A DNA stretch of 14,324 bases from NCBI GenBank assembly GCA_017940085.1, contig JAGAZK010000056.1:1-14324 (forward strand), given 5' to 3'. The notes under the pieces were generated by a model. That model ran no database searches and had not been told where the DNA came from. It saw only the letters and a program-made list of their open reading frames with translations. The number at the start of each line of letters is the position of its first letter. Position 1 is the first letter of the stretch. This DNA comes from Campylobacter sp. Its GTDB lineage: Bacteria > Campylobacterota > Campylobacteria > Campylobacterales > Campylobacteraceae. Position numbers and translations under genes: made by a program. Below are positions 1,223 through 14,324 of the stretch, one piece after another.

Positions 1223-2144
1223 TTCTTTTCCTATCGCACCATACCATTACAGCTTTTTGAGCATGAAGTCTATTTTCTGCTTCACTAAAAATCTCATTTG
1301 CATGATCTTCAAAAACTTCTTCGCTCACTTCATGATCTCTATAAGCTGGCAAACAATGCAAAAATATAGCATTTGGCTTTGCTAATTTCATCATATCACT
1401 ATCTACGCAAAATCCTTTAAAATCATTTATTCTTTTGGCTTTTTCGTCTTCTTGACCCATTGAAATCCAAGTATCAGTAGTAACGACATCTGCGTCTTTG
1501 ATAGCTATTTTTGGATCTAAACTAAAAGAAATTTTAGCTCCACTTTGTTTAGCATTTTGCATAGCAATTGCGACTATATTTGAGTTTGGCTCATATCCTT
1601 TTGGCGTAGCTATACTTAACTCAAAACCAATTTTACTAGCAGCCATTAGCCAAGAATGTGTCATGTTGTTGCCATCGCCTATATAAGCGACTTTCATTTC
1701 ATTTAAATTTAATCCAAATTCAACCAAAGTAAGTAAATCTGCCATTAATTGAACAGGGTGAAAATCATCACTTAGTCCGTTTATCACTGGCACACCGCTA
1801 AATTTAGCAAGTTCTTCTAAATCACTTTGTTTATAAACTCTAGCCATTATCATATCAACCATTCGCCCAAGCACTCTAGCTGTATCTTTGACAGGCTCTC
1901 CACGACCAAGTTGAATATCTTTGGAGCTCAAAAACAAAGCTTTTCCGCCAAGTTGATGCATACCTACATCAAAACTCACTCTTGTTCTAGTTGAGCTTTT
2001 TTCAAAAATCATAGCTAAAGTTTGCTCATGAAGATAAGGCGTGTAAATATGCTTTTTGGCATCTTTTTTGATTTGAATAGCAAGGTCTAAAATATCAAAA
2101 ATTTCATCTTTACTAAGATCGTTTAAAGTAAGAAAATGTCGCAT
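1215..2144 (-). CDS. argF: Ornithine carbamoyltransferase
   Basis: Transfers the carbamoyl group of carbamoyl phosphate to ornithine, giving citrulline in arginine synthesis; a cytosolic trimer in its family. The 309-residue length is normal. The carbamoyl-phosphate loop KSSTRTR ends at residue 55, [11 protein letters not shown] begins at residue 129, the ornithine-side DTWISMG motif is at 224-230 and the HCLPAYR motif with the catalytic Cys at 263-269. These distinguish it from aspartate carbamoyltransferase. The ATG lies one base after the hemB stop codon; its ribosome-binding site AAGGGG is inside the last codons of hemB. The stop overlaps the next gene, so the order hemB-argF-UPF0763-hemN looks like one transcript. 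I see no arginine-operator-like site at the promoter. Confidence 0.97.
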
Positions 2145-2145
2145 T

Positions 2146-3117
2146 TTAGCCCCTTAAAATTTGTGCGGCTTCTTTTGCATGATATGAAATTATCATATCT
2201 GCTCCGGCTCGCTTTATGCTAATTAGAGTTTCCATCATAACTCTTTCATAATCAATCACTCCAAGCTTTTTTCCAGCTTGTAAAAGGGCGTATTCGCCAC
2301 TAACATTATAAGCACAAAGTGGCAAAAGCGTGTTGTTTCTAATTTCTCGCAAAATATCTAAATACGCCAAAGCTGGTTTGACCATCAAAATATCAGCTCC
2401 TTGCGCTTCGTCTTGCATACTCTCATTTATCGCTTCTAAACGGTTTGCTGGATCCATTTGATAGCTTTTTCTATCTCCAAAACTAGGAGCAGATTCTGCT
2501 ACATCGCGAAACGGTCCATAATAAGCAGAAGCAAATTTAGTCGAATACGCCATTATTGGCAAATTTGCAAAACCTTCGCTATCAAGTGCATTTCTCAAGG
2601 TATAAATAATGCCATCCATCATACCGCTTGGCGCTATCATATCAGCACCGCTTTTAGCATGAATTATAGCTTGTTTGGCTGAAATTTCAAGCGTAGCATC
2701 ATTATCCACACTCCCACAACTCAAATCCAAAATCCCACAATGTCCGTGATCTGTATATTCGCAAAAACAAAGATCAGTAATCACGACTAAATTTGGAAAT
2801 TTGTCTTTTATAGCTTTGACCCCGTTTGCTATTAGTCCGTTTTCGTTTAGAGCGTCTGAGCCAACACTATCTTTAATGTCTGGAATACCAAATAAAATAA
2901 TTGATTTTATACCCAAATTTACTACTTCTTGGCATTCTTTTAAGATCTCATCAATACTCATTTGAAAGACACCCGGCATTGATGAAATTTCCTTTTTTAT
3001 ACCATTTCCACAAACCACAAAAAGCGGATATATAAAATCATCAGTTTTTAAGTGTGTTTCACGCACCAAATCTCTAATATTTGAATTAATTCTTAATCTT
3101 CTTAGTCTAGCAAACAT
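2146..3117 (-). CDS. hemB: Delta-aminolevulinic acid dehydratase (porphobilinogen synthase)
   Basis: Condenses two 5-aminolevulinate molecules into porphobilinogen, an early step of tetrapyrrole synthesis. The protein has 323 residues, the usual length. Two Schiff-base lysines are in recognisable context: K194 in [17 protein letters not shown] and K247 in [13 protein letters not shown] cysteine-rich metal site is visible as C117, C119 and C127 in [15 protein letters not shown], so this is probably a zinc-using rather than purely magnesium-using enzyme. The stretch [20 protein letters not shown] is diagnostic of HemB. It is the first gene of the minus-strand operon, with a good ribosome-binding site AAGGAG at 3123-3128 and a near-perfect -10 box upstream. 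Confidence 0.97.
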
Positions 3118-3140
3118 TTTGACTCCTTAAAAAGATAGAT

Positions 3141-3148
3141 ATTATAGC
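3141..3148 (-). promoter_or_regulatory. -10 promoter box of the hemB operon
   Basis: Read on the minus strand this is GCTATAAT, a perfect -10 hexamer with the upstream G that Campylobacter promoters favour. It ends 23 bases before the hemB ATG, leaving a short leader that contains the AAGGAG ribosome-binding site. No -35 box is visible, as is usual for this genus; the DNA further upstream is AT-rich. Confidence 0.7.
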
Positions 3149-3223
3149 ATTTTTGGATAAAAGTAAATTTATATATGGCAAATTTATCGTTTTAATATAG
3201 AGAATAATATTAAAAAAATAAAT

Positions 3224-3916
3224 TTATTGTCTTTCGTTCAAGTCCCAATTTATTGGTGAAATTTGATTATTTTTTAAATATTCATTGCATTTGCTAAAGT
3301 GTTTGCAACCAAAAAATGCTCCTCTAGCAAGTGGGCTTGGGTGAGCAGCCATTAAAACTAAATGTTTTTTAAAATCAATCAAATTTGCTTTTGATTTTGC
3401 ATAATTTCCCCACAACATAAAGACTAAATTTGATTTTTTTTCGCTCAAAATCCTAATCACAGCGTCCGTAAAGGTCTGCCAGCCAAAATTTGAATGCGAA
3501 TTTGCCACACCTGCATTTACGCTCAAAGTTGCATTTAAAAGCAACACTCCTTGCCTTGCCCAAAAGCTCAAATCACCGCTATTTGGCTCTTTGATACCCA
3601 AATCATCAGCTATCTCTTTATAAATATTTACTAGACTTGGTGGAATTTTAATACCATTTGGCACAGAAAAACTAAGTCCCATTGCTTGACCAGCCCCATG
3701 ATACGGATCTTGACCCAATATCACGACTTTGACTTTATCAAATGGAGTTAGGTTAAAAGCGTTAAATATTAAATTGCCAGGCGGATAAACTTTGTTTTTT
3801 GAAAGAGCGTGAAGTAAATTTTGTTTGATTTGCAAAAAATAAGGACTAAGAAACTCATTTTTAAGAGCTTCTTTCCAGCCTTGTTCAATTTTGATTTTGT
3901 CTAAATCTATTTGCAA
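3224..3916 (-). CDS. ung: Uracil-DNA glycosylase, family 1
   Basis: Removes uracil from DNA as the first step of base-excision repair. The 230-residue protein has the water-activating motif GQDPYH at 68-73 (catalytic Asp 70), the following GAGQAMGLSFSVP, the uracil-binding region LLLNATLSV, and the DNA-intercalation loop AAHPSPLARGAFFGCKHFS, beginning at residue 190, with His 192. The start codon is TTG (complement of 3914-3916), not ATG; no in-frame ATG precedes the conserved core, and KIKIEQGWKEALKNEF fits the family N-terminus. The ribosome-binding site would be AAAGGTGG about 6 bases upstream. This site and the start sit in or beside a perfect hairpin between rplT and ung, so expression is likely low or structure-controlled. 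It follows rplT in the same direction after 49 bases. Confidence 0.94.
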   Translation of the reverse strand: MQIDLDKIKIEQGWKEALKNEFLSPYFLQIKQNLLHALSKNKVYPPGNLIFNAFNLTPFDKVKVVILGQDPYHGAGQAMGLSFSVPNGIKIPPSLVNIYKEIADDLGIKEPNSGDLSFWARQGVLLLNATLSVNAGVANSHSNFGWQTFTDAVIRILSEKKSNLVFMLWGNYAKSKANLIDFKKHLVLMAAHPSPLARGAFFGCKHFSKCNEYLKNNQISPINWDLNERQ

Positions 3917-3945
3917 ACAAAACCACCTTTTAATGTGGTTTTGTT
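3916..3945 (-). terminator. Hairpin after rplT, probable terminator overlapping the ung start region
   Basis: An 11-bp perfect inverted repeat (AACAAAACCAC at 3916-3926 with GTGGTTTTGTT at 3935-3945) closes an 8-base loop. It begins 20 bases after the rplT stop. Read on the minus strand, the 3' arm GTGGTTTTGTTTG is U-rich, as in an intrinsic terminator, but there is no pure U run. The loop and 3' arm include the ung ribosome-binding site AAAGGTGG, and the TTG start is at the foot of the stem. It could therefore be a terminator, a translational lock on ung, or both. Confidence 0.55.
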
Positions 3946-3965
3946 GCTATTTTGGATTTGTGCAA

Positions 3966-4319
3966 TTAAAGAGCCTTTTTAGCTTCGCTAACTATTTTTG
4001 CAAAAGCTTCAGGATCGTTCATCGCTAAATTTGCCAAAACTTTTCTGTCAAGTGCGATATTTGCTTTTTTCAAAGCATTCATAAATTTAGAATAACTAAT
4101 ATCATTTAGTCTGCAAGCAGCATTTATTCTAATAATCCAAAGTCTTCTGAAATCGCGTTTTTTAGCTTTGCGATCGCGGAAAGCATAAACTAAACTTCTT
4201 TCTAATTGTTCTTTTGCTTTTCTAAAGTGCTTATGTCTAGCACTAAAAAAGCCTCTTGCTAGTTTTAGAACTTTTTTGTGGCGTCTTCTGCGAACTACGC
4301 CTGTTTTAACTCTTGCCAT
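3966..4319 (-). CDS. rplT: 50S ribosomal protein L20
   Basis: The 117-residue basic protein binds 23S rRNA early in assembly of the large ribosomal subunit. The start [20 protein letters not shown] and the region [19 protein letters not shown] are characteristic of L20, and the length is standard. The ribosome-binding site AAAAGGA lies just upstream of the ATG. rpmI is immediately upstream, the usual bacterial pair. In many bacteria L20 represses this pair by binding the mRNA; here the 91-base rpmI-rplT gap contains a small hairpin (4361-4383) but I cannot show that it mimics the rRNA site. The translation-factor gene infC, often next to this pair in other bacteria, is not present here. Confidence 0.97.
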
Positions 4320-4360
4320 AATTTTTCCTTTTAAATTTGGCGTCCAGATTTGGAACTTTT

Positions 4361-4383
4361 CCTAAAATTCCCGTAAATTTAGG
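4361..4383 (-). other. Small hairpin in the rpmI-rplT gap
   Basis: CCTAAA (4361-4366) pairs with TTTAGG (4378-4383), continued inward by two more pairs after one mismatch, closing on a short loop. It lies 41 bases before the rplT ATG on the minus strand. It is a candidate mRNA structure for ribosomal-protein feedback but is short and AT-rich, so it may be chance. Confidence 0.3.
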
Positions 4384-4410
4384 AGGTTTGAATGACTTTT
4401 TGTCAAAAAC

Positions 4411-4602
4411 TTATTTGCAAAGCATTTTTCTGACAGCTTTTTCGTTTGTGCTATCTACAAAATGCGGTCCTCTTAGATCTCTTTTGCGTGTGCTAGACAT
4501 TTTTGTCAAAATGTGGCTTCTAAAAGCTGAGCCTCTTTTGATCTTATTCTTGCCTATTTTAAAGCGTTTTGCCGCACCGCGAACAGACTTCATTTTTGGC
4601 AT
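4411..4602 (-). CDS. rpmI: 50S ribosomal protein L35
   Basis: A 63-residue very basic ribosomal protein of the large subunit. The N-terminus [16 protein letters not shown] and the later [20 protein letters not shown] identify L35; the length is normal. It begins the rpmI-rplT pair on the minus strand. The ribosome-binding site AAAGGA (4608-4613) is well placed, and a TATAAT box is 33 bases upstream of the ATG. The promoter region is shared, divergently, with glmM. Confidence 0.96.
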
Positions 4603-4635
4603 AACAATCCTTTAAAATTGAAAAAATGAGAAGCG

Positions 4636-4641
4636 ATTATA
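4636..4641 (-). promoter_or_regulatory. -10 promoter box of rpmI-rplT
   Basis: Perfect TATAAT on the minus strand, 33 bases before the rpmI ATG. No -35 box is seen, only T- and A-rich DNA upstream. Confidence 0.6.
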
Positions 4642-4698
4642 TAAAAAACTTGATAAAACTAAGATAAATTTCAGTAAATTTTTTTACCAATCCAAATT

Positions 4699-4714
4699 TG
4701 ATTAAATTTAATCA
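4699..4714. other. 16-base perfect palindrome in the rpmI/glmM divergent promoter region
   Basis: TGATTAAATTTAATCA reads the same on both strands and overlaps an exact CAAATTTG (4693-4700). It lies between the two divergent -10 boxes, 24 bases upstream of the glmM box. It resembles words repeated in other intergenic regions of this window, so it may be either a protein-binding site or part of a genome-wide base-composition habit. Confidence 0.4.
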
Positions 4715-4737
4715 TCAATTTTTAATCTCTTTTTGGC

Positions 4738-4743
4738 TAAAAT
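4738..4743 (+). promoter_or_regulatory. Candidate -10 promoter box of the glmM operon
   Basis: TAAAAT preceded by GGC, 28 bases before the glmM ATG, with T-rich stretches upstream (TTTTTAATCTCTTTTTGG), the pattern seen in Campylobacter promoters. The ribosome-binding site is a modest AAGAGG. Confidence 0.5.
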
Positions 4744-4771
4744 TACGCAATTTTTTATGTAAGAGGCGAAA

Positions 4772-6109
4772 ATGAAGCTTTTTGGCACTGATGGCGTAAG
4801 AGGAATGGCTGGAGAAAAATTAAATGCAATGCTTGCTATGCGTTTAGCAATGGCAGCTGGGATTTATTTTAGCAAACATAGTATCACTAAGACAATCTTA
4901 GTCGGCAAAGATACAAGAAAAAGTGGCTATATGATAGAAAATGCTATTGTTACAGGGCTTACAGCAGTCGGCTATAATGTCTTGCAAATCGGTCCGATGC
5001 CAACTCCAGCAGTGGCGTTTTTGACAGAAGATATGCGTTGTGATTGTGGGATTATGATAAGTGCTAGTCATAATCCATTTTTTGATAATGGAATTAAATT
5101 TTTTGATAGTTTTGGCAATAAACTAAGCGTTGAAGCAGAAAAAGCTATAGAAGATATTTATTTTGATGACAACCAAATAAATGAAGCCCAAGTTACTGGA
5201 TTTGAGATTGGAAGATCTAAAAGAATTGACGATGTTATCGGTAGATACATCGTGCATATCAAAAACAGCTTCCCACACAATCTCACCCTCAAAGGACTTA
5301 GAATAGTCTTAGATGTCTCAAATGGCGCTGCTTACAAAGTCGCTCCTACGATTTTTAGTGAGCTTGGAGCTGAACTAATCGTGCTAAGCGATGAACCAAA
5401 TGGTGCTAATATTAACGAAAATTGCGGTGCATTACACCCAGAAAATTTAGCCAAAGAAGTAAAGCATTTAAGAGCAGATATTGGATTTGCTTTTGACGGA
5501 GATGCTGATAGGCTTGTGGTTGTAGATGAAAAAGGCGAAGTTGTTCATGGAGATGCGTTAATTGGTATTTTAACAGCATTTTTGGACGAACAAAAAATGC
5601 TAGAAAAAAAAGCTATAGTAGCCACTGTGATGAGTAATGCGGCTTTAGATGATTTTTTGGCAAAGCGAAAAATAAAAATTATCAGATCTGCTGTTGGGGA
5701 TAAATTTGTGCTTGAAAAAATGAAAGAAAATGGAATAAATTTTGGTGGTGAGCAAAGCGGACACATAATATTTAGCGATTTTGCCAAAACTGGAGATGGG
5801 CTAGTTTCAGCACTCCAACTTGGTGCTTGTTTATTAACAAGTGGCAAAAAAGCAAGTGAATTATTTAAAGCTATCAAACCGTATCCGCAAATTTTGGCAA
5901 ATTTAAAAATAAGTGAGAAAAAATCACTTGATAGTCTAAAAGGACTAAAAGAATTAGAAGATGAGCTTAAAAATCTTGGGATTAGATCGCTATTTCGCTA
6001 TTCAGGCACAGAAAATTTACTTAGACTTTTATTAGAGGGTAAAGATAAAAATTTAGTAAATAAAAAAATGAAAGAAGTAAAGGAATTTTTTGAAAAGGCT
6101 CTTGGATGA
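4772..6109 (+). CDS. glmM: Phosphoglucosamine mutase
   Basis: Interconverts glucosamine-6-phosphate and glucosamine-1-phosphate on the way to UDP-GlcNAc, the precursor of peptidoglycan and lipid A sugars. The 445-residue length and all four domain signatures are present: the start [11 protein letters not shown], the active-site loop [12 protein letters not shown] with the phosphoserine expected at S99, the metal loop DGDADR at 242-247, the sugar-binding GGEQSGH with Glu 327, and the phosphate-binding RYSGTE at 409-414. The GTDGVRG start and SASHNP loop are of GlmM rather than PGM/PMM type. The activity needs phosphorylation of the serine. The stop codon overlaps the lspA start (ATGA), so the two are co-translated. 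It heads the plus-strand operon. Confidence 0.97.
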
Positions 6110-6555
6110 ATAAAGCAATTTTAAAATTTTTGCTTTATTTTTGCTTGGTTTTTATAATAGATCAAATTATCAAATGGGTGTTTTTAAATGGATTTTCATA
6201 CAAAAGCTCATGGATTGATTTAGTGCTGACTTTTAATAAAGGCGTAGCATTTTCGATGTTTGCGTTTTTGGGAGAATATTTAAAAATAATCCAAATCATT
6301 TTAATGGCTTTGCTTTTTAGCTATTTGATGATAGAAAAAACATTATTTCGCTCGTATCCAATAGCTCTTGGGCTTATTTTTGGCGGTGGTGCTTCAAATG
6401 TTTTGGATAGATTTATTCATGGCGGAGTTGTGGATTATGTGTTTTGGCATAAGTGGTTTGAATTTGCTGTATTTAACTTCGCTGATGTGATGATAGATTT
6501 GGGTGTGGTAATAATAATCTTACAAAGCCTAAATTTAATAAGGAAAAAACCATGA
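6106..6555 (+). CDS. lspA: Lipoprotein signal peptidase (signal peptidase II)
   Basis: Inner-membrane aspartyl protease that cleaves the signal peptide of lipid-modified prolipoproteins before the lipidated cysteine. The 149-residue protein has four hydrophobic segments and the family motifs IIDQIIKW near residue 18, [10 protein letters not shown] (43-52), [20 protein letters not shown] (93-112) and [12 protein letters not shown] (122-133). The two catalytic aspartates are expected to be D110 and D127. It overlaps glmM at its start by four bases and the following TM2 gene at its end by four bases (ATGA). It therefore has no separate promoter and depends on the glmM transcript. This glmM-lspA pairing is also what I remember from C. 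jejuni. Confidence 0.96.
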
Positions 6556-6920
6556 AAAAAAGCATTTTTTTTGCATATCTTTGGTGGATTTTATTTGTGT
6601 TTATAGGCGGCGGAGTTCATAGAATTTATTGTGGTAGATTTTTTAGCGGTTTTTTACAAATTGTTTTGTATTGGCTTGGCATAGCATTAAAAATCGTTTT
6701 AATCGGATATGTTTTTTTAGGAATTTGGGCGATTTGGTGGCTAATTGATGCGTTTTTGACAGCTAAAATTGTAGAAGATTTTAATGCCGCCCAACAAGGC
6801 AAAATTTCACTCGAAGAAGAAGAAAAAATCAAAATCATTGAGAAATTTTACGAACTTTATAAAGAAGGCAAAATTACTCAAGACGAATACGAACAAAAGA
6901 AAAACGAAATCTTAAATTAA
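6552..6920 (+). CDS. TM2-domain membrane protein with C-terminal SHOCT-like segment
   Basis: A 122-residue membrane protein. Residues 1 to about 75 carry hydrophobic helices with the TM2-type pattern: a glycine-rich turn GGGVHRIYCGRFFSGFLQ (about 19-36), then a second hydrophobic stretch ending in WAIWWLIDAFL. The C-terminal 25 residues, EKFYELYKEGKITQDEYEQK, resemble a SHOCT segment, a short helical module often found at protein C-termini and thought to mediate oligomerisation or substrate contact. An acidic/charged linker (EEEEKIKIIE) joins the two. The function is unknown. It overlaps lspA by four bases and is followed nine bases later by hemJ, so it is an operon member. It appears to be inserted between lspA and hemJ compared with what I recall of C. 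jejuni. Confidence 0.8.
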   Translation: MKKSIFFAYLWWILFVFIGGGVHRIYCGRFFSGFLQIVLYWLGIALKIVLIGYVFLGIWAIWWLIDAFLTAKIVEDFNAAQQGKISLEEEEKIKIIEKFYELYKEGKITQDEYEQKKNEILN

Positions 6921-6929
6921 GGAGAATTT

Positions 6930-7406
6930 ATGGGTGCTGAGAATTATTTTTGGCTAATTAATATCTCACCAAATACATATTATTGGCTGAGATTTTGGCA
7001 TTTTATGGCTTTTATTTCTTGGATGGCTGTGTTGTTTTATCTGCCAAGACTTTTTGTTTATCACGCAGAAAATATAGACAACAAACATTATTGCGAAGTC
7101 GTCAAAATCCAAGAAAGAAAACTATTTCACGGGATTGGCTGGATTGCTATGATTGTTACGATCGGCACTGGTGTGGCGATTTGGCTTTTAGCAAAACCTG
7201 ATCTTATCAGGCTTGGATATTTTCATATTAAACTAACCTGTGCAGTGCTTTTGATAATTTATCATTTTAGTTTGTGGCATTATTTGAAGCAGTTTGCGGC
7301 TGATAATTGCTTTAAAAGTGGGAAATTTTTCCGTTTTTACAATGAAGTTCCGACAATTATTATGGCATTTATAGTTTATGCTATGATAGTCAAAGCAAAC
7401 TTCTAA
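6930..7406 (+). CDS. hemJ: Protoporphyrinogen IX oxidase HemJ (UPF0093 family)
   Basis: Membrane heme-biosynthesis enzyme that oxidises protoporphyrinogen IX to protoporphyrin IX, the step after HemN. The 158-residue length and four membrane helices fit HemJ. Diagnostic regions are LRFWHFMAFISWMAVLFYLP (20-39) with the conserved His 24, RLFVYHAE (40-47), GYFHIKLTCAVLLI with Lys 101, HYLKQFAAD, and the end SGKFFRFYNEVPTIIMAFIV. His and Lys residues in these helices are those associated with heme b binding in the family. The ribosome-binding site AAGGAG overlaps the end of the preceding gene. It is the last gene of the glmM operon, followed by a terminator-like hairpin. Annotation pipelines may call it 'CopD family' or 'UPF0093 protein'. 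Confidence 0.9.
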   Translation: MGAENYFWLINISPNTYYWLRFWHFMAFISWMAVLFYLPRLFVYHAENIDNKHYCEVVKIQERKLFHGIGWIAMIVTIGTGVAIWLLAKPDLIRLGYFHIKLTCAVLLIIYHFSLWHYLKQFAADNCFKSGKFFRFYNEVPTIIMAFIVYAMIVKANF

Positions 7407-7425
7407 ATTTATTCAAATTTACGCA

Positions 7426-7473
7426 AGAGCAAGGGTTTTTTAAGTTAAGTTTTAGTAAAATCCTAGCTCTTTT
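7426..7473 (+). terminator. Terminator-like hairpin between hemJ and tRNA-Val
   Basis: AGAGC (7426-7430) pairs with GCTCT (7466-7470). After one A-A mismatch eight more pairs follow (AGGGTTTT at 7432-7439 with AAAATCCT at 7457-7464, including one G-U). The 17-base loop is AT-rich and the stem is followed by TTT. This fits an intrinsic terminator for the glmM-hemJ operon, but it ends exactly where the tRNA begins and contains the tRNA's probable -10 box. Confidence 0.5.
7456..7461 (+). promoter_or_regulatory. Candidate -10 box of tRNA-Val
   Basis: TAAAAT preceded by AG, 12 bases before the first base of the mature tRNA. A transcript from here would start close to the mature 5' end. The box lies in the loop and 3' arm of the hairpin at 7426-7473. 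Confidence 0.4.
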
Positions 7474-7549
7474 GGTTCCGTAGCTCAGTTGGTAGAGCAT
7501 CACCTTGACATGGTGGGGGTCGTTGGTTCAAGTCCAATCGGAGCCACCA
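7474..7549 (+). tRNA. tRNA-Val (anticodon GAC), CCA encoded
   Basis: A complete 76-base cloverleaf. The acceptor stem GGTTCCG pairs with CGGAGCC (one T-G wobble). The D arm is GCTC/GAGC, and the anticodon arm TCACC-TTGACAT-GGTGG carries GAC at positions 34-36, which reads GTC and GTT valine codons. The variable loop is GGGTC and the T arm GTTGG-TTCAAGT-CCAAT. The discriminator base is A and the 3' CCA is encoded at 7547-7549. Confidence 0.97.
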
Positions 7550-7566
7550 TTTTGACCGCAAATCAA

Positions 7567-7664
7567 TTAAATTTAATCAAATTTATCACAAATTTTAGAC
7601 TCAAATTGATTAAATTTAAACTATACAAGTCCAAATTTGATGATTTTTTATGCAAATTTGGGCT
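7567..7664. repeat. Two AT-rich inverted repeats downstream of tRNA-Val
   Basis: First, TTAAATTTAATCAA (7567-7580) and its exact reverse complement (7606-7619), 25 bases apart. Second, AGTCCAAATTTG (7628-7639) pairs with CAAATTTGGGCT (7653-7664), 12 bp with one G-T, around a 13-base loop. The second could act as a weak terminator for the tRNA but has no T run after it. The rest of 7550-7783 shows no gene. Confidence 0.45.
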
Positions 7665-7783
7665 AGGTTCGCACTAAATCAAATTTATCACACACGCTAT
7701 AAAAGCAAATTTATTAATTTATGCTGTTAAAACGCAGTTTTAGGCTACAACCAAATTTAATTGCCCAAAAATTCAAACAAAAT

Positions 7784-8497
7784 TTATTCTAAAACCTCAT
7801 CTAATCTAACAAACTCAAATCCGTTTGCTCTCAAAATTGAAATTCCTAAAATCAAGCCTTGTGCGATTTGCTTTTGTGGGCGATTGGCGTGAGCTATGAT
7901 AATATCACCATTTTTGGATTTTAGGATTTCTTTTTTGATACGATTTGCAGAAAATGTCGCCCCGCCGTCTGCTAAAATACTAAATCCAATCGGCTTTAAG
8001 CCCATTTTGTAAATTTGCTCAATTGCTTTTTTGTCATAATACGCTCCGCCAGAGCGATAAAATTTGGGTCTTTTGAGCGTGATTTGGGCGATTAAATTTG
8101 CATTTTTGTTTATTTCATCACTAAGTTCGGCTAAATTTTTTGTGCCTTTTAAGCCATAAATTGACTTACCATCAACCGAAGCTGGTTTGTGTTTGGTGCC
8201 ATGATTTTCTATCTCAAAAAGTGGATTTTTGTAAATTCGCTCAAAATATTTTGGGTATTTTTTGATCCAGCGGTAATTTACAAAAAATGTCGCTTTTATA
8301 TCGTTTTTCTCCAAAAACTCCACAAGTCTTTCATCAAATCCGTCTGTTTTGCCGCCACACAAATCCAAACTCAAAGCTAAAATTTTTTCGTTTTTTGGAT
8401 TTGGGATAGTTTTAATAACTCCACTCAAACTATCGCCCCACTCATTTTGTGAAGCAAAACACAAACTCATACAAAAAATAATTATAAATTTTTTCAT
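7784..8497 (-). CDS. Secreted polysaccharide deacetylase-like (NodB-fold) protein
   Basis: A 237-residue exported protein. Residues 1-16 (MKKFIIIFCMSLCFAS) form a signal peptide. The rest looks like a NodB-type carbohydrate esterase fold: motif 1 is LSLDLCGG with Asp 45, replacing the usual TFDDG, and matches a subgroup with ALTLDxCGG; motif 2 is ENHGTKH with the metal ligands expected at H99 and H103; motif 3 is FYRSGGAYYD around R148; and the late IIIAHANRP supplies H203. The likely role is to deacetylate or bind an N-acetylated glycan in the periplasm, perhaps peptidoglycan. It is also possible that the altered motif 1 has a different substrate. The gene stands alone, divergent from the nitroreductase. 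No good ribosome-binding site is visible (GAGAC only). Confidence 0.8.
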   Translation of the reverse strand: MKKFIIIFCMSLCFASQNEWGDSLSGVIKTIPNPKNEKILALSLDLCGGKTDGFDERLVEFLEKNDIKATFFVNYRWIKKYPKYFERIYKNPLFEIENHGTKHKPASVDGKSIYGLKGTKNLAELSDEINKNANLIAQITLKRPKFYRSGGAYYDKKAIEQIYKMGLKPIGFSILADGGATFSANRIKKEILKSKNGDIIIAHANRPQKQIAQGLILGISILRANGFEFVRLDEVLE

Positions 8498-8583
8498 TTT
8501 GTCTCAAATTTGATAAATTTGGCGTGAATTTTGATTAAATTTAGCTTAAAACTAGCAAAAACTTATGTAAATTTTGGAGAAAA

Positions 8584-8622
8584 TTTGATTAAATTTGGCA
8601 TAATTTAGCAAATTTAATCAAA
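8584..8622. promoter_or_regulatory. 14-bp perfect inverted repeat around the nitroreductase promoter
   Basis: TTTGATTAAATTTG (8584-8597) and its exact reverse complement CAAATTTAATCAAA (8609-8622) are 11 bases apart. The spacer contains the candidate -10 box CATAAT (8599-8604), and the right arm ends at the ribosome-binding site AAAGGA. This could be an operator for a repressor, or an mRNA hairpin that hides the ribosome-binding site. Related words occur in other gaps of the window, which weakens the case for a specific operator. Confidence 0.5.
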
Positions 8623-8631
8623 AGGATTTAA

Positions 8632-9243
8632 ATGAAAGAAATTATGAAAAATCGCTATAGTTGTCGTAAATTTAATGACACAAAAATCTCTGATGAAAAG
8701 GTGCGTGAAATTGTAGATTTAACAAGACTAAGTCCAAGTTCGTGCGGACTTGAGCCTTGGAAATTTATGGTAATCTCAAAAGAAAATGATATTAAAAACT
8801 TAGGCGAGATTTGCAATTCACAACCCCAAGTATCTACTTGCTCACACGCTGTAATTATCATAGCTAGAAACGATTTAAAAGTAGGAAATGAATATTTAGA
8901 ATCTTGTGTCAAACGCCGTGCAAATACGCCCCAAAAATACGAAGCTGCGATGCAATATTTTGAGCAAAAATTCCAAAATATGAATAATCAAATGATGACA
9001 AATTATGCTTCCAAACAATGCTATATCGCTGTGGGAAATATGGTAAATATAGCTGAGGGCTTGGGCGTGAAGTCTTGCATAATTGCTGGATTTGATGAGC
9101 AAAAACTTACTAAATTTGTGCGTGAAAATGGCGGTTTAAATGATAATTTTACACCAGTTTTGGTCGTGGCATTAGGAAAAGGCGAGGAAATCAAATTTCC
9201 ACACACTAGACATAGTTTAGAAGATGTGTTGATATGGAAATAA
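8632..9243 (+). CDS. RdxA/NfsB-like NAD(P)H nitroreductase
   Basis: A 203-residue flavoenzyme of the nitroreductase family, expected to be an FMN-containing cytosolic dimer that reduces nitro compounds or quinones with NAD(P)H. The N-terminal NRYSCRKFN (7-15) binds the FMN phosphate, LSPSSCGLEPWKFMVI (33-48) is the second FMN-contact motif, and KQCYIAVGNMVNIAEGLGVK with SCIIAGFD (148-155) forms the C-terminal flavin region. QCYIAVG and SCIIxGFD are shared with H. pylori RdxA, the metronidazole-activating reductase, as I remember it, so RdxA is the closest named relative. I do not give the symbol because NfsB-type paralogues cannot be excluded. The ribosome-binding site is AAAGGA. It is a single gene, convergent with lysP and divergent from the deacetylase-like gene. 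Confidence 0.85.
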   Translation: MKEIMKNRYSCRKFNDTKISDEKVREIVDLTRLSPSSCGLEPWKFMVISKENDIKNLGEICNSQPQVSTCSHAVIIIARNDLKVGNEYLESCVKRRANTPQKYEAAMQYFEQKFQNMNNQMMTNYASKQCYIAVGNMVNIAEGLGVKSCIIAGFDEQKLTKFVRENGGLNDNFTPVLVVALGKGEEIKFPHTRHSLEDVLIWK

Positions 9244-9249
9244 TTTTAT

Positions 9250-9395
9250 CCCAAACTTTGAGAAATTAATCAAATTTTGGGCTATGAGCCAAAATTTGCT
9301 TAATTTAATCCAAATTTGGCTCAAATTTGATTAAAAACTATTTTTCATAGTTTGTATCAAATAAAAACCGATCTTTTAAATTTGAGCCAAATTTG
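9250..9395. repeat. Nested inverted repeats between convergent nitroreductase and lysP genes
   Basis: Three structures share this gap. CCCAAA at 9250-9255 pairs with TTTGGG at 9276-9281, continued by TTTG/CAAA after a mismatch. GAGCCAAAATTTG (9286-9298) pairs with CAAATTTGGCTC (9311-9322), 12 bp with one bulged A. CAAATTTGGCTCAAATTT (9311-9328) has an exact 18-base reverse complement at 9378-9395. The last two compete. A small 7-bp hairpin AAACTAT/ATAGTTT (9335-9353) is inside. They may act as a two-way terminator for the two converging genes, though no clear T run follows any stem. Confidence 0.5.
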
Positions 9396-9415
9396 TTTGA
9401 TTAAAAGCTATAAAT

Positions 9416-10864
9416 TTATTCTCTTTGTAAATTTGCAGTTTTTAAATCTACAGCTTTTGATTTTGTAATAATTTTATGTCCTATCCAAATCCCAAAAAAC
9501 ATAAACACACCAAAAAGACTACTTATAAAAATAATCAAATTTGAACTCTGAATAAATGCATCAATCGTCTGTCCGACAATTACTACCAAACACATACAAA
9601 GAGCAATCAGTGGTGCGTATGGATACCATTTGGCAAGATAAGGCAAATCAGCTAAATTTCGCCCTTGCAAAACATAAGCTTTGCGAAAATTATAGTGCGA
9701 CCAAGCAATAGAAATCCAAGCAATAAATCCAGTTAGAGCTGAATTATTTAGTAGCCAATAATACGCCCCACCATCTCCAATAAAAGAAGTCAAAAAACAA
9801 CTCATTGCTATCATTGTAGTAGCAATGAGTGCATACACAGGGACACCATTTTTGTTTGTCATTCCAAATATTTTTGGTGCTTTTTTAGAATGAGCTAGAG
9901 CATAAAGCATTCTTGTGCTTGAATAAAGTCCAGAATTTCCAGCACTTACCACGGCTGTAAATATTACAGCATTCATAATACTCGCAGCAAATGCAATACC
10001 AGCTCTATCAAACAATAAAGTAAATGGGCTATAAGCAATATCTGTTTCATCGTTTTTGAGCAAATTTGGATCATTAAATGGAATCAAAGTCCCAATCACC
10101 GCAATTGCAAGTATATAAAATAATAATATTCGCCAAAATACCATATTTATAGCTTTTGGTATTGATTTATCTGGATTTTTTGCTTCACCTGCAGCAATTG
10201 CGACAAGTTCTGTGCCTTGAAAACTAAATCCAGCCACCAAAAATACACTCACCAATCCAAAAAATCCACCCACAAAAGGTGCGTGATTGCCTTTGTCATC
10301 GCTCAAAATCCAGTTTGAAAACCCTGCATCATGTCCGCTCATAATATGAAAAATCATAGCCAATCCAAGTCCGATAAACACGACCACAGTTATTACTTTG
10401 ATAAGAGCAAGCCAAAACTCGCTCTCCCCAAAAGCACCTGAACTAAAATAATTTATCACTACAATCACAGCCAAAAATGTCCCCGAACACAAATAACTTG
10501 GCATTTCAGGAAACCAAAACTTCATTATAATCGTAGCTGCTACAAGCTCAGCCGCAACCGTAATCGCCCAGTTAAACCAATACATCCAACCTATACTAAA
10601 CCCAAAAGACGGACTAACAAATCTAGAACTATATTCTTCAAAACTCCCAGCCACTGGCAAATAAGTCGCCATTTCACCAAGACTTTGCATAAGCAAATAC
10701 ACCATAAACCCAATTAACGCATAAGCAAGCAATGCTCCGCCTGGACCAGCTGTAGCTATACTAGCTCCACTTGCGACAAATAGCCCTGTGCCGATACTCC
10801 CACCAATTGCTATCATATTTAGGTGTCTTGTGGTCATTTGTCTTTTTAATTTACCAAGTTCCAT
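9416..10864 (-). CDS. lysP: Lysine-specific permease LysP (APC family amino-acid transporter)
   Basis: A 482-residue inner-membrane transporter with about 12 hydrophobic segments, expected to import lysine with protons. Similarity to E. coli LysP, as I remember that sequence, runs along the whole length: TTRHLNMIAIGGSIGTGLFV (11-30, with the substrate-binding GSIGTG turn in helix 1), AGPGGALLAYALIGFMVYLL, the helix-6 region VAGFSFQGTELVAIAAGE, then VFWRILLFYILAI, SAGNSGLYSSTRMLYALA, and FIAWISIAWSHYNFRKAYVL. These favour LysP over other APC permeases such as the aromatic or proline ones, but substrate specificity remains inferred. The start is preceded by AAAGGA; the -10 box is 25 bases upstream. 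It is a single gene, divergent from the outer-membrane protein gene. Confidence 0.92.
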   Translation of the reverse strand: MELGKLKRQMTTRHLNMIAIGGSIGTGLFVASGASIATAGPGGALLAYALIGFMVYLLMQSLGEMATYLPVAGSFEEYSSRFVSPSFGFSIGWMYWFNWAITVAAELVAATIIMKFWFPEMPSYLCSGTFLAVIVVINYFSSGAFGESEFWLALIKVITVVVFIGLGLAMIFHIMSGHDAGFSNWILSDDKGNHAPFVGGFFGLVSVFLVAGFSFQGTELVAIAAGEAKNPDKSIPKAINMVFWRILLFYILAIAVIGTLIPFNDPNLLKNDETDIAYSPFTLLFDRAGIAFAASIMNAVIFTAVVSAGNSGLYSSTRMLYALAHSKKAPKIFGMTNKNGVPVYALIATTMIAMSCFLTSFIGDGGAYYWLLNNSALTGFIAWISIAWSHYNFRKAYVLQGRNLADLPYLAKWYPYAPLIALCMCLVVIVGQTIDAFIQSSNLIIFISSLFGVFMFFGIWIGHKIITKSKAVDLKTANLQRE

Positions 10865-10888
10865 TTATTTCCTTTAAATTTTTGCGAG

Positions 10889-10894
10889 ATTTTA
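10889..10894 (-). promoter_or_regulatory. Candidate -10 box of lysP
   Basis: TAAAAT on the minus strand (context GTAGTAAAATCTCGC), ending 24 bases before the lysP ATG, with the ribosome-binding site AAAGGA between. Upstream lie several CTCAAATTT words in the divergent region. Confidence 0.45.
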
Positions 10895-10991
10895 CTACAA
10901 ATTCATAACTAAATTTTCTCAAATTTCGCCTCAAATTTAAAAAATTTTCAAATTTTTTCTCAAATTTAGTCAGATTTAAGCTGATTTTAAT

Positions 10992-11000
10992 GGGGGGGGG
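10992..11000 (+). repeat. Homopolymeric tract of nine G upstream of the outer-membrane protein gene
   Basis: Nine consecutive G in an otherwise very AT-rich gap. Campylobacter G/C tracts of about this length slip during replication and cause phase variation. This one is intergenic, 89 bases before the ATG, and directly touches the candidate -10 box TAGAAT (11001-11006). Length changes would move upstream promoter DNA relative to the -10 box rather than shift a reading frame. Confidence 0.85.
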
Positions 11001-11006
11001 TAGAAT
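11001..11006 (+). promoter_or_regulatory. Candidate -10 box of the outer-membrane protein gene
   Basis: TAGAAT (five of six bases of TATAAT) immediately after the G9 tract; AATAAT at 11005-11010 is an alternative. The leader that follows is about 80 bases and holds the palindrome TACTAAATTTAGTA at about 11020-11033 and a ribosome-binding site AAAGGA close to the ATG. Confidence 0.45.
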
Positions 11007-11089
11007 AATACTTTGAAATTACTAAATTTAGTAAATTTGAGTCTAAATTTAATCAAATTTAGTAGTAAATTTATTTTAAAGGAAAAAAT

Positions 11090-11821
11090 ATGTGCAAATT
11101 TAGCAAATTTACTCTTGGTGCATTGGTCGCAAGCAGTATCACAAGCAGTGCTTGTGCGAATTGGTATGACAATATATTTGCAGGCGTAGAAGCTGATTAT
11201 AACTTCGCTTCAGACATATCGCTTCAAGTAAAAAATCATATAAGCATCAGCCCTTTTAATGGAAATATGTCTGATGATGCTCGGGCATTTGGGTTTGGTG
11301 CCAAATTGGGTTATGATTTTGATATTGCCAGAGTTTATGGGGCTTATAATCACAATTTTAAAGCCAAAGCTGATACAAATTATTGGGATAATACATTACA
11401 CTCTGGTTATATTTCGAGCGGGGAAATCAAATGGAATAGCAACGATTTTATCTTAGGTGCGGACTACACGCCTAAATTTAGCATTTCCGGGATAGATTTC
11501 AAAGCGATTTTAGGTGCTTTTGGTGGGCTTAGCAAAATAGATATTAAACACGAAGAACGAGGCGTTAATACTTATGGATTAACACAAATGCAAGGAAGCC
11601 TAAATGGCTTTATTTATGGACTTAGGCTTGGCAGCATTTATGAGATAAACAAAAACAACGAAGTCGAATTTGGCTTTAAATTTAGCCAAGCTAAATATTC
11701 TGACAAAGATACTACTATAAATATTTGCAATTATATTCATTGCTTTAAAGAAAATTTAAAATTATCAGACACCAAGCTTACAAATAAAGGTGTTTTTGTA
11801 GGGTATAATTATAAATTTTAG
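11090..11821 (+). CDS. Outer-membrane beta-barrel protein, unnamed
   Basis: A 243-residue exported protein that I do not recognise by name. Residues 1-23 form a signal peptide with a cleavage site after ACA, before NWYDN. The mature part alternates hydrophobic and polar residues in many short strands (FGFGAKLGYDFDIARVYGAY, NDFILGADYTP, FKAILGAFGGLSKI, FIYGLRLGSIYEI, NEVEFGFKFSQAKY) and ends in VGYNYKF, an aromatic C-terminal residue typical of proteins inserted by the BAM complex. This fits a small barrel of about eight strands, like the OmpA-type or porin-like families. The loop NICNYIHCF has two cysteines that could form a disulfide near the C-terminus. It is a single gene with a G9 tract at its promoter and a hairpin terminator after it, so switching of expression is likely. 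Adhesin, transport or immune-evasion roles cannot be told apart. Confidence 0.8.
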   Translation: MCKFSKFTLGALVASSITSSACANWYDNIFAGVEADYNFASDISLQVKNHISISPFNGNMSDDARAFGFGAKLGYDFDIARVYGAYNHNFKAKADTNYWDNTLHSGYISSGEIKWNSNDFILGADYTPKFSISGIDFKAILGAFGGLSKIDIKHEERGVNTYGLTQMQGSLNGFIYGLRLGSIYEINKNNEVEFGFKFSQAKYSDKDTTINICNYIHCFKENLKLSDTKLTNKGVFVGYNYKF

Positions 11822-11841
11822 TTTTGCAAAACTTTGTTTTT

Positions 11842-11864
11842 AAGACGAGTTTGACGCTCGTCTT
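11842..11864 (+). terminator. Terminator hairpin of the outer-membrane protein gene
   Basis: Perfect 8-bp stem AAGACGAG/CTCGTCTT around a 7-base loop, 20 bases after the stop codon; the richest GC stem nearby. It is followed by GGTTCTTGT, a poor T tract, and preceded by TTTTT. The 12-base palindrome GTTTTGCAAAAC (11821-11832) lies just before it. Confidence 0.6.
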
Positions 11865-12060
11865 GGTTCTTGTATCTTCACAACTGCTTTTTTAATAAAT
11901 TTTATCACTAAATACTTCGCCTTAGAGTAAATTTGGCTCAAATTTGCGAGTAAATTTGACTAAATTTGGCATTAAATTTAATGAAACACTGTGTTTTGGA
12001 ATAAATTTGAAAACGCTGTGTTTTAGCAAATATTCAAGACAGATTAGGCGTAATTTAAGT
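11865..12060. other. AT-rich gap without a gene, with short repeats
   Basis: No open frame with coding character. It contains several AAATTTG words and a short direct repeat CTGTGTTTT at 11989-11997 and 12016-12024. The first copy is part of the odd palindrome AAACACTGTGTTT (11984-11996). No promoter or RNA gene could be supported. Confidence 0.4.
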
Positions 12061-12125
12061 CAAATTTAGCCGTTTGCAAAGGCGCGTACTTGAGCGTGCG
12101 TAACTGCAGAAAATGGCTAAATTTG
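12061..12125. other. Long hairpin with GC-rich tip
   Basis: CAAATTTAGCC (12061-12071) is the exact reverse complement of GGCTAAATTTG (12115-12125). Inside, GTTT/AAAT and GCA/TGC pairs follow with a small bulge, and GCGCG (12082-12086) pairs with CGTGC (12095-12099, one G-T) over an 8-base loop. The 65-base unit could fold as a single stem on either strand. The tip is far more GC-rich than the surroundings. Function unknown. Confidence 0.55.
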
Positions 12126-12170
12126 GCTTAAAATCCGTTCAAAGCTGGGGAATTAAAAAAGCTAAGCTGA

Positions 12171-12345
12171 GAATTGCGAAAATAAAAGGCGTGGGATTTG
12201 CGAGATGATTTTCGCGGTTGCACAGATACGAGCGACTGAGACGGACTTAAACGCCCGTCGCAAGGAAACACGAAGCAGGTTTTCTTAAAAAAGACGAATT
12301 GTAAAGAAGGCGAAGGATTTGCGAGATATTTTCGGGGTTGTGTAG
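12171..12345. repeat. Imperfect direct repeat, two copies 121 bases apart
   Basis: Copy 1 (12171-12226) and copy 2 (12296-12345) both begin GAATTG, continue through AGGCG and share GGATTTGCGAGAT (12194-12206 and 12315-12327), followed by a TTTTCG-GGTTG-AGA pattern. The second copy is also the left arm of the hairpin at 12315-12424. Between them is a small hairpin GACGG/CCGTC that resembles the terminator at 11842-11864. Looks like remains of duplicated noncoding DNA. Confidence 0.55.
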
Positions 12346-12424
12346 AAAATTTCTTGCGAAAATAGAACAAAAAAGTTCATTGAAACAAGAAATTTTCAAA
12401 CTCCACGAAAAGATCCGCAAAGCC
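12315..12424. repeat. Long imperfect inverted repeat, hairpin element A
   Basis: The core is 12 perfect pairs, GAAAATTTCTTG (12345-12356) with CAAGAAATTTTC (12386-12397). The outer part pairs imperfectly: TTTTCG (12329-12334) with CGAAAA (12406-12411), and GGATTTGCG with CGCAAAGCC at the base. The tip is GAAC-AAAAAA-GTTC (12365-12378), flanked by AAT and ATT. About 110 bases in all. The tip sequence is shared with element B. Confidence 0.6.
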
Positions 12425-12444
12425 AAGCCGTAAATTTAATTCAT

Positions 12445-12563
12445 AAGCGAAGATTTTTTTGCTATGCAAGGCAGGATAGCGAGTGCAAGGATAATAAGAC
12501 AAAAAAGTCTATTGACGAAGCACGAGCTATCCTAACACAGCATAGCAGAAAAAGCTGAAGCTT
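12445..12563. repeat. Long inverted repeat, hairpin element B, abutting the nrdA stop
   Basis: From outside in: AAGC/GCTT, TTTTTTT (12454-12460) with AGAAAAA (12547-12553), GCTATGC (12461-12467) with GCATAGC (12540-12546), AGGATAGC (12473-12480) with GCTATCCT (12526-12533), TGC/GCA, then AGAC-AAAAAA-GTCT at the tip. Internal loops are small. It touches the end of nrdA on the minus strand and may be part of its 3' end, but the A run after the stem on the minus strand is not what an intrinsic terminator has. Confidence 0.65.
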
Positions 12564-14324
12564 ATTGGCAGCCTTCGCATTCTATGCTTCTATCTAACGG
12601 CTTATTATCCAACGAAGTAGTTTCAGGGCTTTGAGATCTTAAATAATAAGTAGATTTAATGCCTAATTTCCAAGCCAAAGTATAAATATCGCTCAAATAC
12701 CCGCCACTTGCTTTATCAAGGCTCATAAATATATTTAGGCTTTGACCTTGATCGATCCATTTTTGGCGGATTGCACCAGCTTTTATCAGCACTCTTTGAT
12801 CCAAATCATAAGCTGGAGTATAATATTGCCAAGTATCAGGACTGAGATTTGGCACGACAGTTGGAATCATACCGCTTAAATTTTGTTCAAACCATTTTCT
12901 TTTATACACAGGCTCAATTGTTTGAGTGGTGCCTACTAAAATACTAATGCTTGAAGTGGGAGCAATTGCCATTAAATAGCCATTTCTCATACCATTTTTG
13001 ATGACTTTAGCTCTAAGTTCGTCCCAATTTAGTTGATTTTCGTCAAACAAACCTTCTCTGCTGACTAATTTTTTGGCTTCTTCATTTGCCATATCTATTG
13101 GAAAAATGCCTTTTGACCATTTTGAGCCTTGAAAATCTGGATAAATGCCTTTTTCTACGGCTAAATTGCTTGAAGCTAGGATTGCATTGTAGCTTATGTT
13201 TTCCATTATTTGATCTATGAGTTCTAAATGAGCATAACTTCCCCACTCTATTTGCTTAGTAGCAAGCATTTGAGCCTCGCCCATCACGCCAAGACCGATT
13301 GCACGATTTGCCATATTTGTTTCTTTGACTTTGCCAACTGGATAAAAATTGAGATCTATGACATTATCTAGCATTCTAATAGCCACAGGGACTACTCTTG
13401 CGAGATCTTCTTTGGTATTAATTTTGCTCAAATTTATACTAGCTAGGTTGCAAACTGCGGTTTTGCCATTAAATTTTTCTTTTTCTACGACAAAAATTTC
13501 TTTATTATCAATAAAATCAAGAGCTGTGATTTTTTTGGCTTTTTTAGAAATCCTATTATTTACAACCACATCTTCTTCTTCATCATACAAAGCCACAGAG
13601 CCGTCAGTAAATTTAACTCTAATCTTATAATAATTTGGTTCGGTATTTTGAAAAATCTCTGTGCATAGGTTTGAACTTCTAATTAACCCTACATGATCAT
13701 TTGGATTTGTTTTATTAGCATTATCTTTAAAGCATAAAAACGGCATTCCGCTTTCAAAATAGCTTGTGAGTATTTTTTTCCACAATTCTTTAGCTGATAC
13801 TGAAAATTTTGAAATTTTTGGATCTTGCTCGTATTGTAAATATCGTTTTTCAAACTCATCTCCATACAAATCGCATAAATCTGAAGTTTCAGCTGGATCA
13901 AATAAGCTCCAACGCTCATTATTCGCAAGTCTTTTCATAAACAAATCATTAATCCAAAGTGCTGGGAATAATTCGTGAGTTCTTCTTCTTTCTTCGCCTG
14001 AGTTTTTACGCAAATCAAGAAAATCATTAATATCCATATGCCAAGTCTCAATATACACAGCGATCGCACCTTTTCTAGTGCCGAGCTGATCTACGGCAAC
14101 TGCAATATCATTTGCAATTTTTAGAAACGGTATCACGCCACCAGCTGCGTTTTTGTGTCCGTCTATACTGCCGCCCATAGCTCTGACTTTGCACCAATCC
14201 CAGCCAATACCTCCACCAAATTTAGAAAGCATTGCCATTTCTTTGTAGCTATCAAAAATACCCTCAATATTATCAGGTGTGCTTCCTACATAACAAGAGC
14301 TAAGCTGATGACGGGTAGTTCTTG
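12562..14324 (-). CDS. nrdA: Ribonucleoside-diphosphate reductase alpha subunit (class Ia), C-terminal part (runs off right edge)
   Basis: Catalytic subunit that reduces ribonucleoside diphosphates to deoxy forms, working with the radical-bearing NrdB subunit. The frame is open from the right edge through RTTRHQLSSCYVGSTPDNIE (first redox Cys) to the stop. Numbering from the internal Met at 14236-14238: KFGGGIGWDW is at 6-15, the active-site NLCTE at 190-194 with catalytic Cys 192, and the second redox Cys 263 in TAVCNLASINL. Further on come APTSSISILVGTTQTIEPVY, the Tyr pair in STYYLRSQ that relays the radical, and the C-terminal shuttle CEGCQ. The segment between Cys 192 and Cys 263 is about 48 residues longer than in E. 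coli NrdA. The true start lies outside the window; the Met at 14238 is not the start, since homologous sequence continues upstream. No downstream nrdB is present. Confidence 0.95.
   Translation of the reverse strand, partial: RTTRHQLSSCYVGSTPDNIEGIFDSYKEMAMLSKFGGGIGWDWCKVRAMGGSIDGHKNAAGGVIPFLKIANDIAVAVDQLGTRKGAIAVYIETWHMDINDFLDLRKNSGEERRRTHELFPALWINDLFMKRLANNERWSLFDPAETSDLCDLYGDEFEKRYLQYEQDPKISKFSVSAKELWKKILTSYFESGMPFLCFKDNANKTNPNDHVGLIRSSNLCTEIFQNTEPNYYKIRVKFTDGSVALYDEEEDVVVNNRISKKAKKITALDFIDNKEIFVVEKEKFNGKTAVCNLASINLSKINTKEDLARVVPVAIRMLDNVIDLNFYPVGKVKETNMANRAIGLGVMGEAQMLATKQIEWGSYAHLELIDQIMENISYNAILASSNLAVEKGIYPDFQGSKWSKGIFPIDMANEEAKKLVSREGLFDENQLNWDELRAKVIKNGMRNGYLMAIAPTSSISILVGTTQTIEPVYKRKWFEQNLSGMIPTVVPNLSPDTWQYYTPAYDLDQRVLIKAGAIRQKWIDQGQSLNIFMSLDKASGGYLSDIYTLAWKLGIKSTYYLRSQSPETTSLDNKPLDRSIECEGCQ

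Follow-up and report, generated by a model that had tools for sequence, protein, structure and literature searches.

A poly-G tract adjoining the −10 box as a candidate phase-variable promoter spacer in an outer-membrane barrel gene family of Campylobacter sp.

The locus: tract, promoter, and downstream gene

The analyzed stretch of DNA (hereafter, the window) comprises 14,324 nucleotides (nt) of Campylobacter sp. (assembly GCA_017940085.1, contig JAGAZK010000056.1, positions 1 to 14,324 of the forward strand). It contains a run of nine G residues (G9, 10992–11000) directly followed, with a gap of 0, by TAGAAT (11001–11006, plus strand), upstream of a gene predicted to encode an exported outer-membrane beta-barrel protein of 243 amino acids (11090–11821, plus strand). 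The surrounding intergenic gap (10865–11089, 225 nt) has a GC content of 21%, or 18% with the tract left out; all its other runs of G or C are at most 2 nt long, and its plus strand has no TANAAT besides TAGAAT. The G7 motif occurs in the window in one tract (three overlapping matches), while 200 shuffles of the window average 0.11 matches, one shuffle reaching three; chance is therefore a poor explanation of the tract.

Stops at 11001, 11006, and 11014 close the three frames that cross the tract, and a further stop, in frame with the ATG at 11090, lies at 11066–11068; hence, the tract has no route through the reading frame of the gene, and a coding switch is ruled out. An initial interpretation made without database searches (the sequence-only reading) had placed nine G in a nearly pure A/T gap, TAGAAT following without interruption, upstream of the start and outside any frame, and all of this agrees with the coordinates given here.

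TAGAAT is predicted to be the −10 box, since GGTAGAAT fits the form gnTAnaAT of epsilonproteobacterial sigma-70 promoters (PubMed Central, PMC, article PMC3847290). With its last T set at −7, the tract occupies positions −13 to −21 of the plus-strand promoter, and an upstream element, TTTAAGCT (10975–10982), begins with a T at −38. According to passages of PMC3847290, sigma-70 promoters of C. jejuni and H. pylori show more conserved T at −7, −17, −27, and −38; three of these T's (−7, −27, and −38) are present in the window, and −17 is G rather than T, because this position is covered by the tract. In place of a clear −35 box, C. jejuni promoters are described as having a periodic AT-rich pattern upstream of an extended −10 box, and mutation of this pattern could also affect transcription (PMC3656092). 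Transcription would be expected to start near 11013, within a leader region (11007–11089) that contains the ribosome-binding site AAGGA (11079–11083); the distance from the end of TAGAAT to the ATG is 83 nt. The homopolymer thus lies inside a predicted promoter and is part of no reading frame of the gene, as in porA of Neisseria.

The structure model of the window protein has eight long strands (mean predicted local distance difference test score, pLDDT, 79.7) and a helical N-terminus, the first 25 residues being of low confidence. In the Foldseek search with this model, outer-membrane barrels rank at the top, with modest template modeling scores (TM-scores). The product is accordingly predicted to be an exported eight-strand outer-membrane barrel (OMP_b-brl, Opacity-like), which favors the exported beta-barrel proposed initially; the family to which it belongs has 12 detected genes in this genome, discussed below. 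In sequence searches, the window protein has no match in Pfam or NCBIfam at E 0.001, PF13505 is hit by two and Opacity by one of 20 aligned members of the barrel family, and a sequence search against solved structures at E 0.1 gives 0 matches.

Promoter copies in the same genome

The assembly to which the window belongs (1.50 Mb, 268 contigs, 83.6% complete) contains 20 tracts of at least eight G (two G8, 15 G9, and three G10) and one tract of exactly seven. Nine of the 20 are accounted for by a promoter element of about 130 bp. With 130 nt of one copy as the query, blastn against this genome detects nine tract-bearing copies (E 2.4e-24 or better), the window copy spanning 10912–11040 of the plus strand with 85% identity, and, besides, three short AT-rich pieces ending short of the tract; since the best 40 of 214 initial candidates were scored, a tract-less copy may have escaped. 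Eight copies lie upstream of paralogous barrel genes, and the ninth is at a contig end (C33). Two contigs (C10 and C33) stop less than 100 nt from the tract, so that the true number of copies may exceed nine.

TAGAAT adjoins the tract in all nine copies. A motif like TTTAAGCT begins 26 nt before the −10 box in eight of them and 29 nt before it in the remaining one, L011 (distances computed for the window, L011, and L020, and read off the sequences for the others). The tract is G9 in seven copies, G8 in one, and G10 in one, the latter two lengths belonging to two more divergent copies. The leader varies from 80 to 265 nt in seven copies.

The 80 nt upstream of the tract have an average identity of 83% among the copies (36 pairs), while the stretch from −200 to −120 has 37% (28 pairs), close to the 32% of unrelated 80-mers. 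On the other side, identity of the paralogues is 72% in coding bases 1–75 and 53% in bases 76–330 (21 pairs each). The promoter and the signal-peptide region being alike and the barrels diverged, a cassette may have spread recently or undergone gene conversion.

Several further features accompany the element. The palindrome ACTAAATTTAGT lies in the window at 11021–11032, shortly downstream of the −10 box, and is seen after several other copies too; it could be an operator, or merely reflect the AAATTT words abundant in this genome. A dispersed TGTCATACTGAGC-type repeat occurs near L011, L012, L013, L019, and L025, partly inside the leader; the window has no such repeat. The barrel paralogue behind one intact element (L025, L081; contig C253) is split by a frameshift, through either gene decay or an assembly error.

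The same architecture in related genomes

In an even sample of 398 genomes of the order, the pattern GGGGGGGTANAAT (G7 directly before TANAAT) has 177 sites versus 53 for the control read backwards. The excess is seen in the family of the window (46 genomes; 80 versus 14, or 71 versus 14 without the own genome) and in a second family, f13 (60 versus 18); all other families have 37 versus 21. Poly-C in the same place gives 12 sites versus 5 for the reversed control in the window's family, and three of the 12 are the other strand of poly-G promoter tracts. By a hand count in the genus, 27 of the 32 tracts lying 0–12 nt before TATAAT adjoin it with zero gap.

One hundred of these sites were fetched with their surroundings: all 71 that the window's family has outside the own genome, plus 29 of the 60 in f13 (a selected, non-random set). 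Of the hundred, 62 have no open reading frame (ORF) across the tract by the ORF rule adopted here. By a hydropathy rule, an exported or membrane-like N-terminus is seen in 42 of 56 downstream proteins versus 29 of 78 control ORFs, although orthologues make the proteins non-independent and the control includes some tract-driven genes. Generally, TTTAAG, a G tract, and TANAAT follow one another in this order in records of Campylobacter and Helicobacteraceae, for the most part upstream of genes whose products are exported or membrane proteins.

The barrel gene has homologues in 10 of the 15 other genomes of the genus (28 matches; loci were obtained for 26 of them and upstream contexts for 25). 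Among 16 genomes of this genus, the exact combination of TTTAATGGGGG and, within 14 nt, TAGAATAAT is found in the own genome alone. In a less strict form, six of the 25 homologue contexts (L049, L051, L053, L056, L062, and L063) have G8–G9 directly upstream of TATAAT or TAAAAT, at most 64 nt from the assumed start; one of these, L053 (genome G012, same genus), has a promoter sequence identical to that of L093. A scan of named genomes with AGCTNNNNTTNATGGGGGGN{0,10}TANAAT, which may omit records close to the own genome, yields 18 stretches, 15 of them in Campylobacter, Helicobacter, or Helicobacteraceae records; the remaining three belong to other groups, lie across genes, and are taken as chance. 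The one match in viral_contigs, where other bases separate the tract from the box, is likewise taken as chance.

Unusual variants are also seen among the related sites. In L119 and L120 (genome G025) and in L133 (G134), a long poly-G has a −10-like box on each side, with TAAAAT on the reverse strand, and one tract thus adjoins a box in both directions; L127 (G220) has two poly-G runs with one A between them upstream of the −10 box, possibly a double tract.

These contexts bear on two other roles that a tract in this position might have. In H. pylori, the G-repeat of tlpB is located in the leader and is read by a small RNA. If transcription in the window started upstream of the tract, the tract would similarly act in the mRNA leader, as the long stretch of 83 nt separating the −10 box from the ATG might suggest; we consider this very improbable, as TAGAAT directly follows the tract in nine of nine own copies, the plus strand of the gap has no second TANAAT, and the start codon follows the −10 box by 20–52 nt at 52 of 56 related sites. 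Alternatively, the tract could be a binding or docking site of a regulator, its length tuning the binding rather than the promoter geometry (as in opc, or through a CRP-like protein, as proposed for tpr); PMC7864442 refers to regulator-based models for both opc and tprE/G/J. The conservation of about 80 nt upstream of the tract, exceeding the needs of a bare promoter, and the palindrome ACTAAATTTAGT after the −10 box are in line with this explanation. However, the contexts from other species share TTTAAG, the tract, and the −10 box, with no further operator seen by eye (no motif search was made), and the tract overlaps the expected contact zone of RNA polymerase, making a regulator site unlikely, if somewhat less so than a leader element.

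Spacing between TTTAAG and the −10 box

Distances between the upstream motif and the −10 box were collected in the genus from 101 matches of TTTAAGCTT followed by TATAAT at 6–30 nt. Among the 93 matches without a run of six G, a gap of 7–8 nt is preferred (38), and single gap lengths outside the main groups occur at most four times each. In contrast, all eight matches with a run of six or more G have a gap of 15–18 nt. The shift of the tract-bearing promoters relative to the main tract-free position is thus about 9–10 bp, near one turn of DNA.

The fetched sites together with the nine own ones (109) include 71 promoter-like sites, reduced to 40 after removal of similar flanks. They contain 28 TTTAAG-type motifs (TTTAAG, TTTCAG, or TTTAAAC within 60 nt of the −10 box), which start 24–30 nt before the −10 box in 17 cases and 16–20 nt before it in six; for TTTAAG alone (22 motifs), the respective numbers are 13 and 6. 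The counts for three control hexamers are 1, 4, and 0. The tract appears to sit between the −10 box and an upstream element at a constrained distance, which is again an arrangement of the porA type.

Variation of tract length

For comparison of lengths, near-identical promoter pairs were defined as sharing the −10 box and having no more than two mismatches over the 30 upstream nucleotides. The tract length is unequal in 17 of 78 such pairs, or in 17 of 63 outside the own genome. In one case, L128 and L130, the two promoters belong to one genome and have identical 30-nt flanks, and the tracts are G12 and G14.

These data are to be set against the possibility that the tract is a promoter spacer with no working switch, that is, a stable G9 inherited through recent duplication together with the genes, or the best fixed spacer. 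The nearly uniform length in the own copies is what this explanation predicts, and so is the much higher similarity of the promoter copies compared with the coding parts, as recent spread or gene conversion would produce. On the other hand, the tract recurs in other genomes with different flanks and genes, the lengths differ in the 17 of 63 pairs just mentioned, and in Helicobacter canadensis poly-G tracts, a G9 included, vary in sequencing reads, as described in passages of PMC2823697. A stable spacer hence seems improbable, although it is the strongest of the three alternatives considered here.

Neighboring genes and other tracts

An amino acid permease gene is divergently located at 9416–10864 (minus strand). 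Its control by the tract is unlikely, and the permease is probably independent of it, because a −10-like TAAAAT of its own (10894–10889, minus strand) lies 24 nt upstream of its start. A terminator-like stem-loop of 11 pairs, four of them G–C, follows the barrel gene at 11840–11866 (plus strand, by consensus match only) and suggests a single-gene transcript.

Other G tracts of the genome are found in different surroundings. In L021 (2538–2547, contig C183), a G10 tract overlaps the ribosome-binding site of a gene whose product, assigned by eye, is a LysR-type regulator, seven bases ahead of the start. The G9 tract of L027 (396–404, contig C262) ends five bases upstream of a gene that, by eye, resembles one for a chemoreceptor; it is possibly a translational dial, for which the H. 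pylori tlpB leader offers a comparison. Finally, L022 and L024 have G9 within two similar genes that by eye resemble glycosyltransferases for surface sugars, the classic coding arrangement of phase variation.

Discussion

Promoter poly-G switches are of a known kind, documented in Neisseria porA, Treponema tpr, and Campylobacter capC. In both the window and porA of N. meningitidis, a noncoding poly-G is located in the promoter spacer of a gene for an outer-membrane protein; in porA, the tract separates −35 and −10 sequences with an optimal spacing of 17 nt (as stated in passages of PMC7864442 and PMC3639595), whereas the promoter analyzed here, found in nine copies, has no clear −35 box and a tract immediately adjacent to its −10 box. 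In Treponema pallidum, several putative outer-membrane genes (tprE/G/J, tprL, and tp0126) each have a poly-G promoter, three of these genes belonging to one family, and the tract of tp0126 is described as acting through the −35/−10 spacing (PMC7864442). Both the bacterium and the proteins are unrelated to ours, and the length dependence was measured there, while here it is a prediction.

Closer relatives offer partial parallels. The autotransporter gene capC, from the same bacterial group, has poly-G in a putative promoter, ranging from G4 to G10 or more and mostly G9 in C. jejuni; an effect of the tract on expression is called conceivable, and the capC genes of C. jejuni and C. coli occupy one common genomic position (passages of PMC7168839). 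Autotransporter-like genes recognized by eye in the related genomes have G8–G10 directly upstream of TATAAT (e.g., L153–L161) and are taken to be of the capC family or close to it; the window gene, however, encodes a small eight-strand barrel and no autotransporter. In sabA of Helicobacter pylori, also an epsilonproteobacterium, a homopolymer shifts the axial alignment of the core promoter and the upstream element, but this is a T tract beside the −35 element rather than a G tract against the −10 box (PMC4081817). H. canadensis has five candidate promoter tracts, four poly-G and one poly-A, the poly-G being likewise in predicted promoters; they differ in length (G13–G16) and in the genes concerned (PMC2823697).

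The sequence-only reading had also held promoter-located tracts to be less common in Campylobacter. This is in agreement with a survey of 77 genomes, in which 77% of the 1,944 poly-G/C tracts are in ORFs and 23% outside, with lengths of 9 and 10 dominating (according to passages of PMC6321876); yet, such tracts are on record, as in capC (PMC7168839), and in the own genome nine of the 20 long tracts fall into one promoter type. Our literature searches, limited to open-licence PMC papers, found no report of a poly-G promoter common to a multi-copy barrel family in the Campylobacter group, and no description of the zero-gap, one-turn tract geometry.

Given the promoter anatomy and the precedents of porA, tp0126, tprE/G/J, and sabA, the following mechanism may be proposed. 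Slipped-strand mispairing would add or remove G residues at high frequency. Because no base separates the tract from TAGAAT, every tract length would leave a G at −14, the position that belongs to the extended −10 box. B-DNA rises by about 0.34 nm and turns by 34 degrees per base pair, and each G would therefore move the upstream AT-rich element with TTTAAG by that much. With nine G, this element would be displaced upstream by about a helical turn relative to most promoters that lack a tract, and would match the register of the conserved T residues at −27 and −38, while other lengths would weaken or strengthen the binding of RNA polymerase. The output might be graded or on–off, with a favored length expected near nine. 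Eight or more promoters slipping independently would then generate a population with many combinations of surface barrels.

A number of observations weigh against this mechanism, or at least limit its support. None of the 15 near-identical pairs of the own genome differs in tract length, its nine copies being almost uniform; these data come from one consensus assembly, and the switching itself is inferred. Few odd sites stand behind the 17 differing pairs, eight of which involve L135, four L157, and three L121. Four of the 12 barrel paralogues detected in the own genome (13 matches, two being the halves of the frameshifted gene) have no tract upstream, the element preceding the other eight. 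Of all 109 sites, 38 are in or across ORFs, including all nine of the f13 sites L172–L180. When tracts 0–12 nt before TATAAT are sought in the genus, the reversed pattern gives 32 overlapping matches versus 61. A strict scan for E. coli-type promoters does not return the window site, its total matches being at the level of shuffles, and the 83 nt between the window's −10 box and start exceed the 20–52 nt of the 52 related sites. The far position of the motif is not unique to G tracts, because a smaller tract-free group (25 of the 93 TTTAAGCTT matches) has a gap of 18–22 nt. Flanks tend to be shorter where tracts are longer, but this trade-off is weak (r = −0.42 over n = 20 partly related sites; permutation P = 0.024) and provides weak evidence that the total distance from TTTAAG to the −10 box matters, three of the 20 sites being misfits at 33–36 nt; this value replaces that of an earlier compensation test (P = 0.0018), which was biased by loci picked with a fixed-flank pattern. 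Finally, inactivation of capC is not explained by tract length in PMC7168839, the passages of which give no expression measurement.

Weighing these points, we conclude that G9 is quite probably the variable spacer of a sigma-70-type promoter, and that the outer-membrane gene would thus be phase-variable at the level of transcription. This extends the candidate switch initially suggested for the locus, with comparative support from the nine copies, the recurrence in other species, the zero gap in 27 of 32 tracts, and the differences in length. The broader interpretation has about an even chance of being correct: one poly-G promoter cassette would have spread together with at least eight diverged barrel genes and remained alike before them, and its copies would slip independently to yield combinatorial surfaces. 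It would be a case of an order-wide class of promoters whose G tract, joined to the −10 box, shifts TTTAAG by about one turn, so that the tract length serves as a geometric dial for the binding of RNA polymerase.

If so, a simple rule (TTTAAG, a G tract, and a −10 box with zero gap) would flag candidate phase-variable surface genes across Campylobacterales. Natural alleles differing mainly in the length and rotation of the spacer would make it possible to test how the epsilonproteobacterial polymerase reads promoters without a clear −35 box. For the bacterium itself, the arrangement would explain how a whole family of outer-membrane barrels may vary randomly in one organism.
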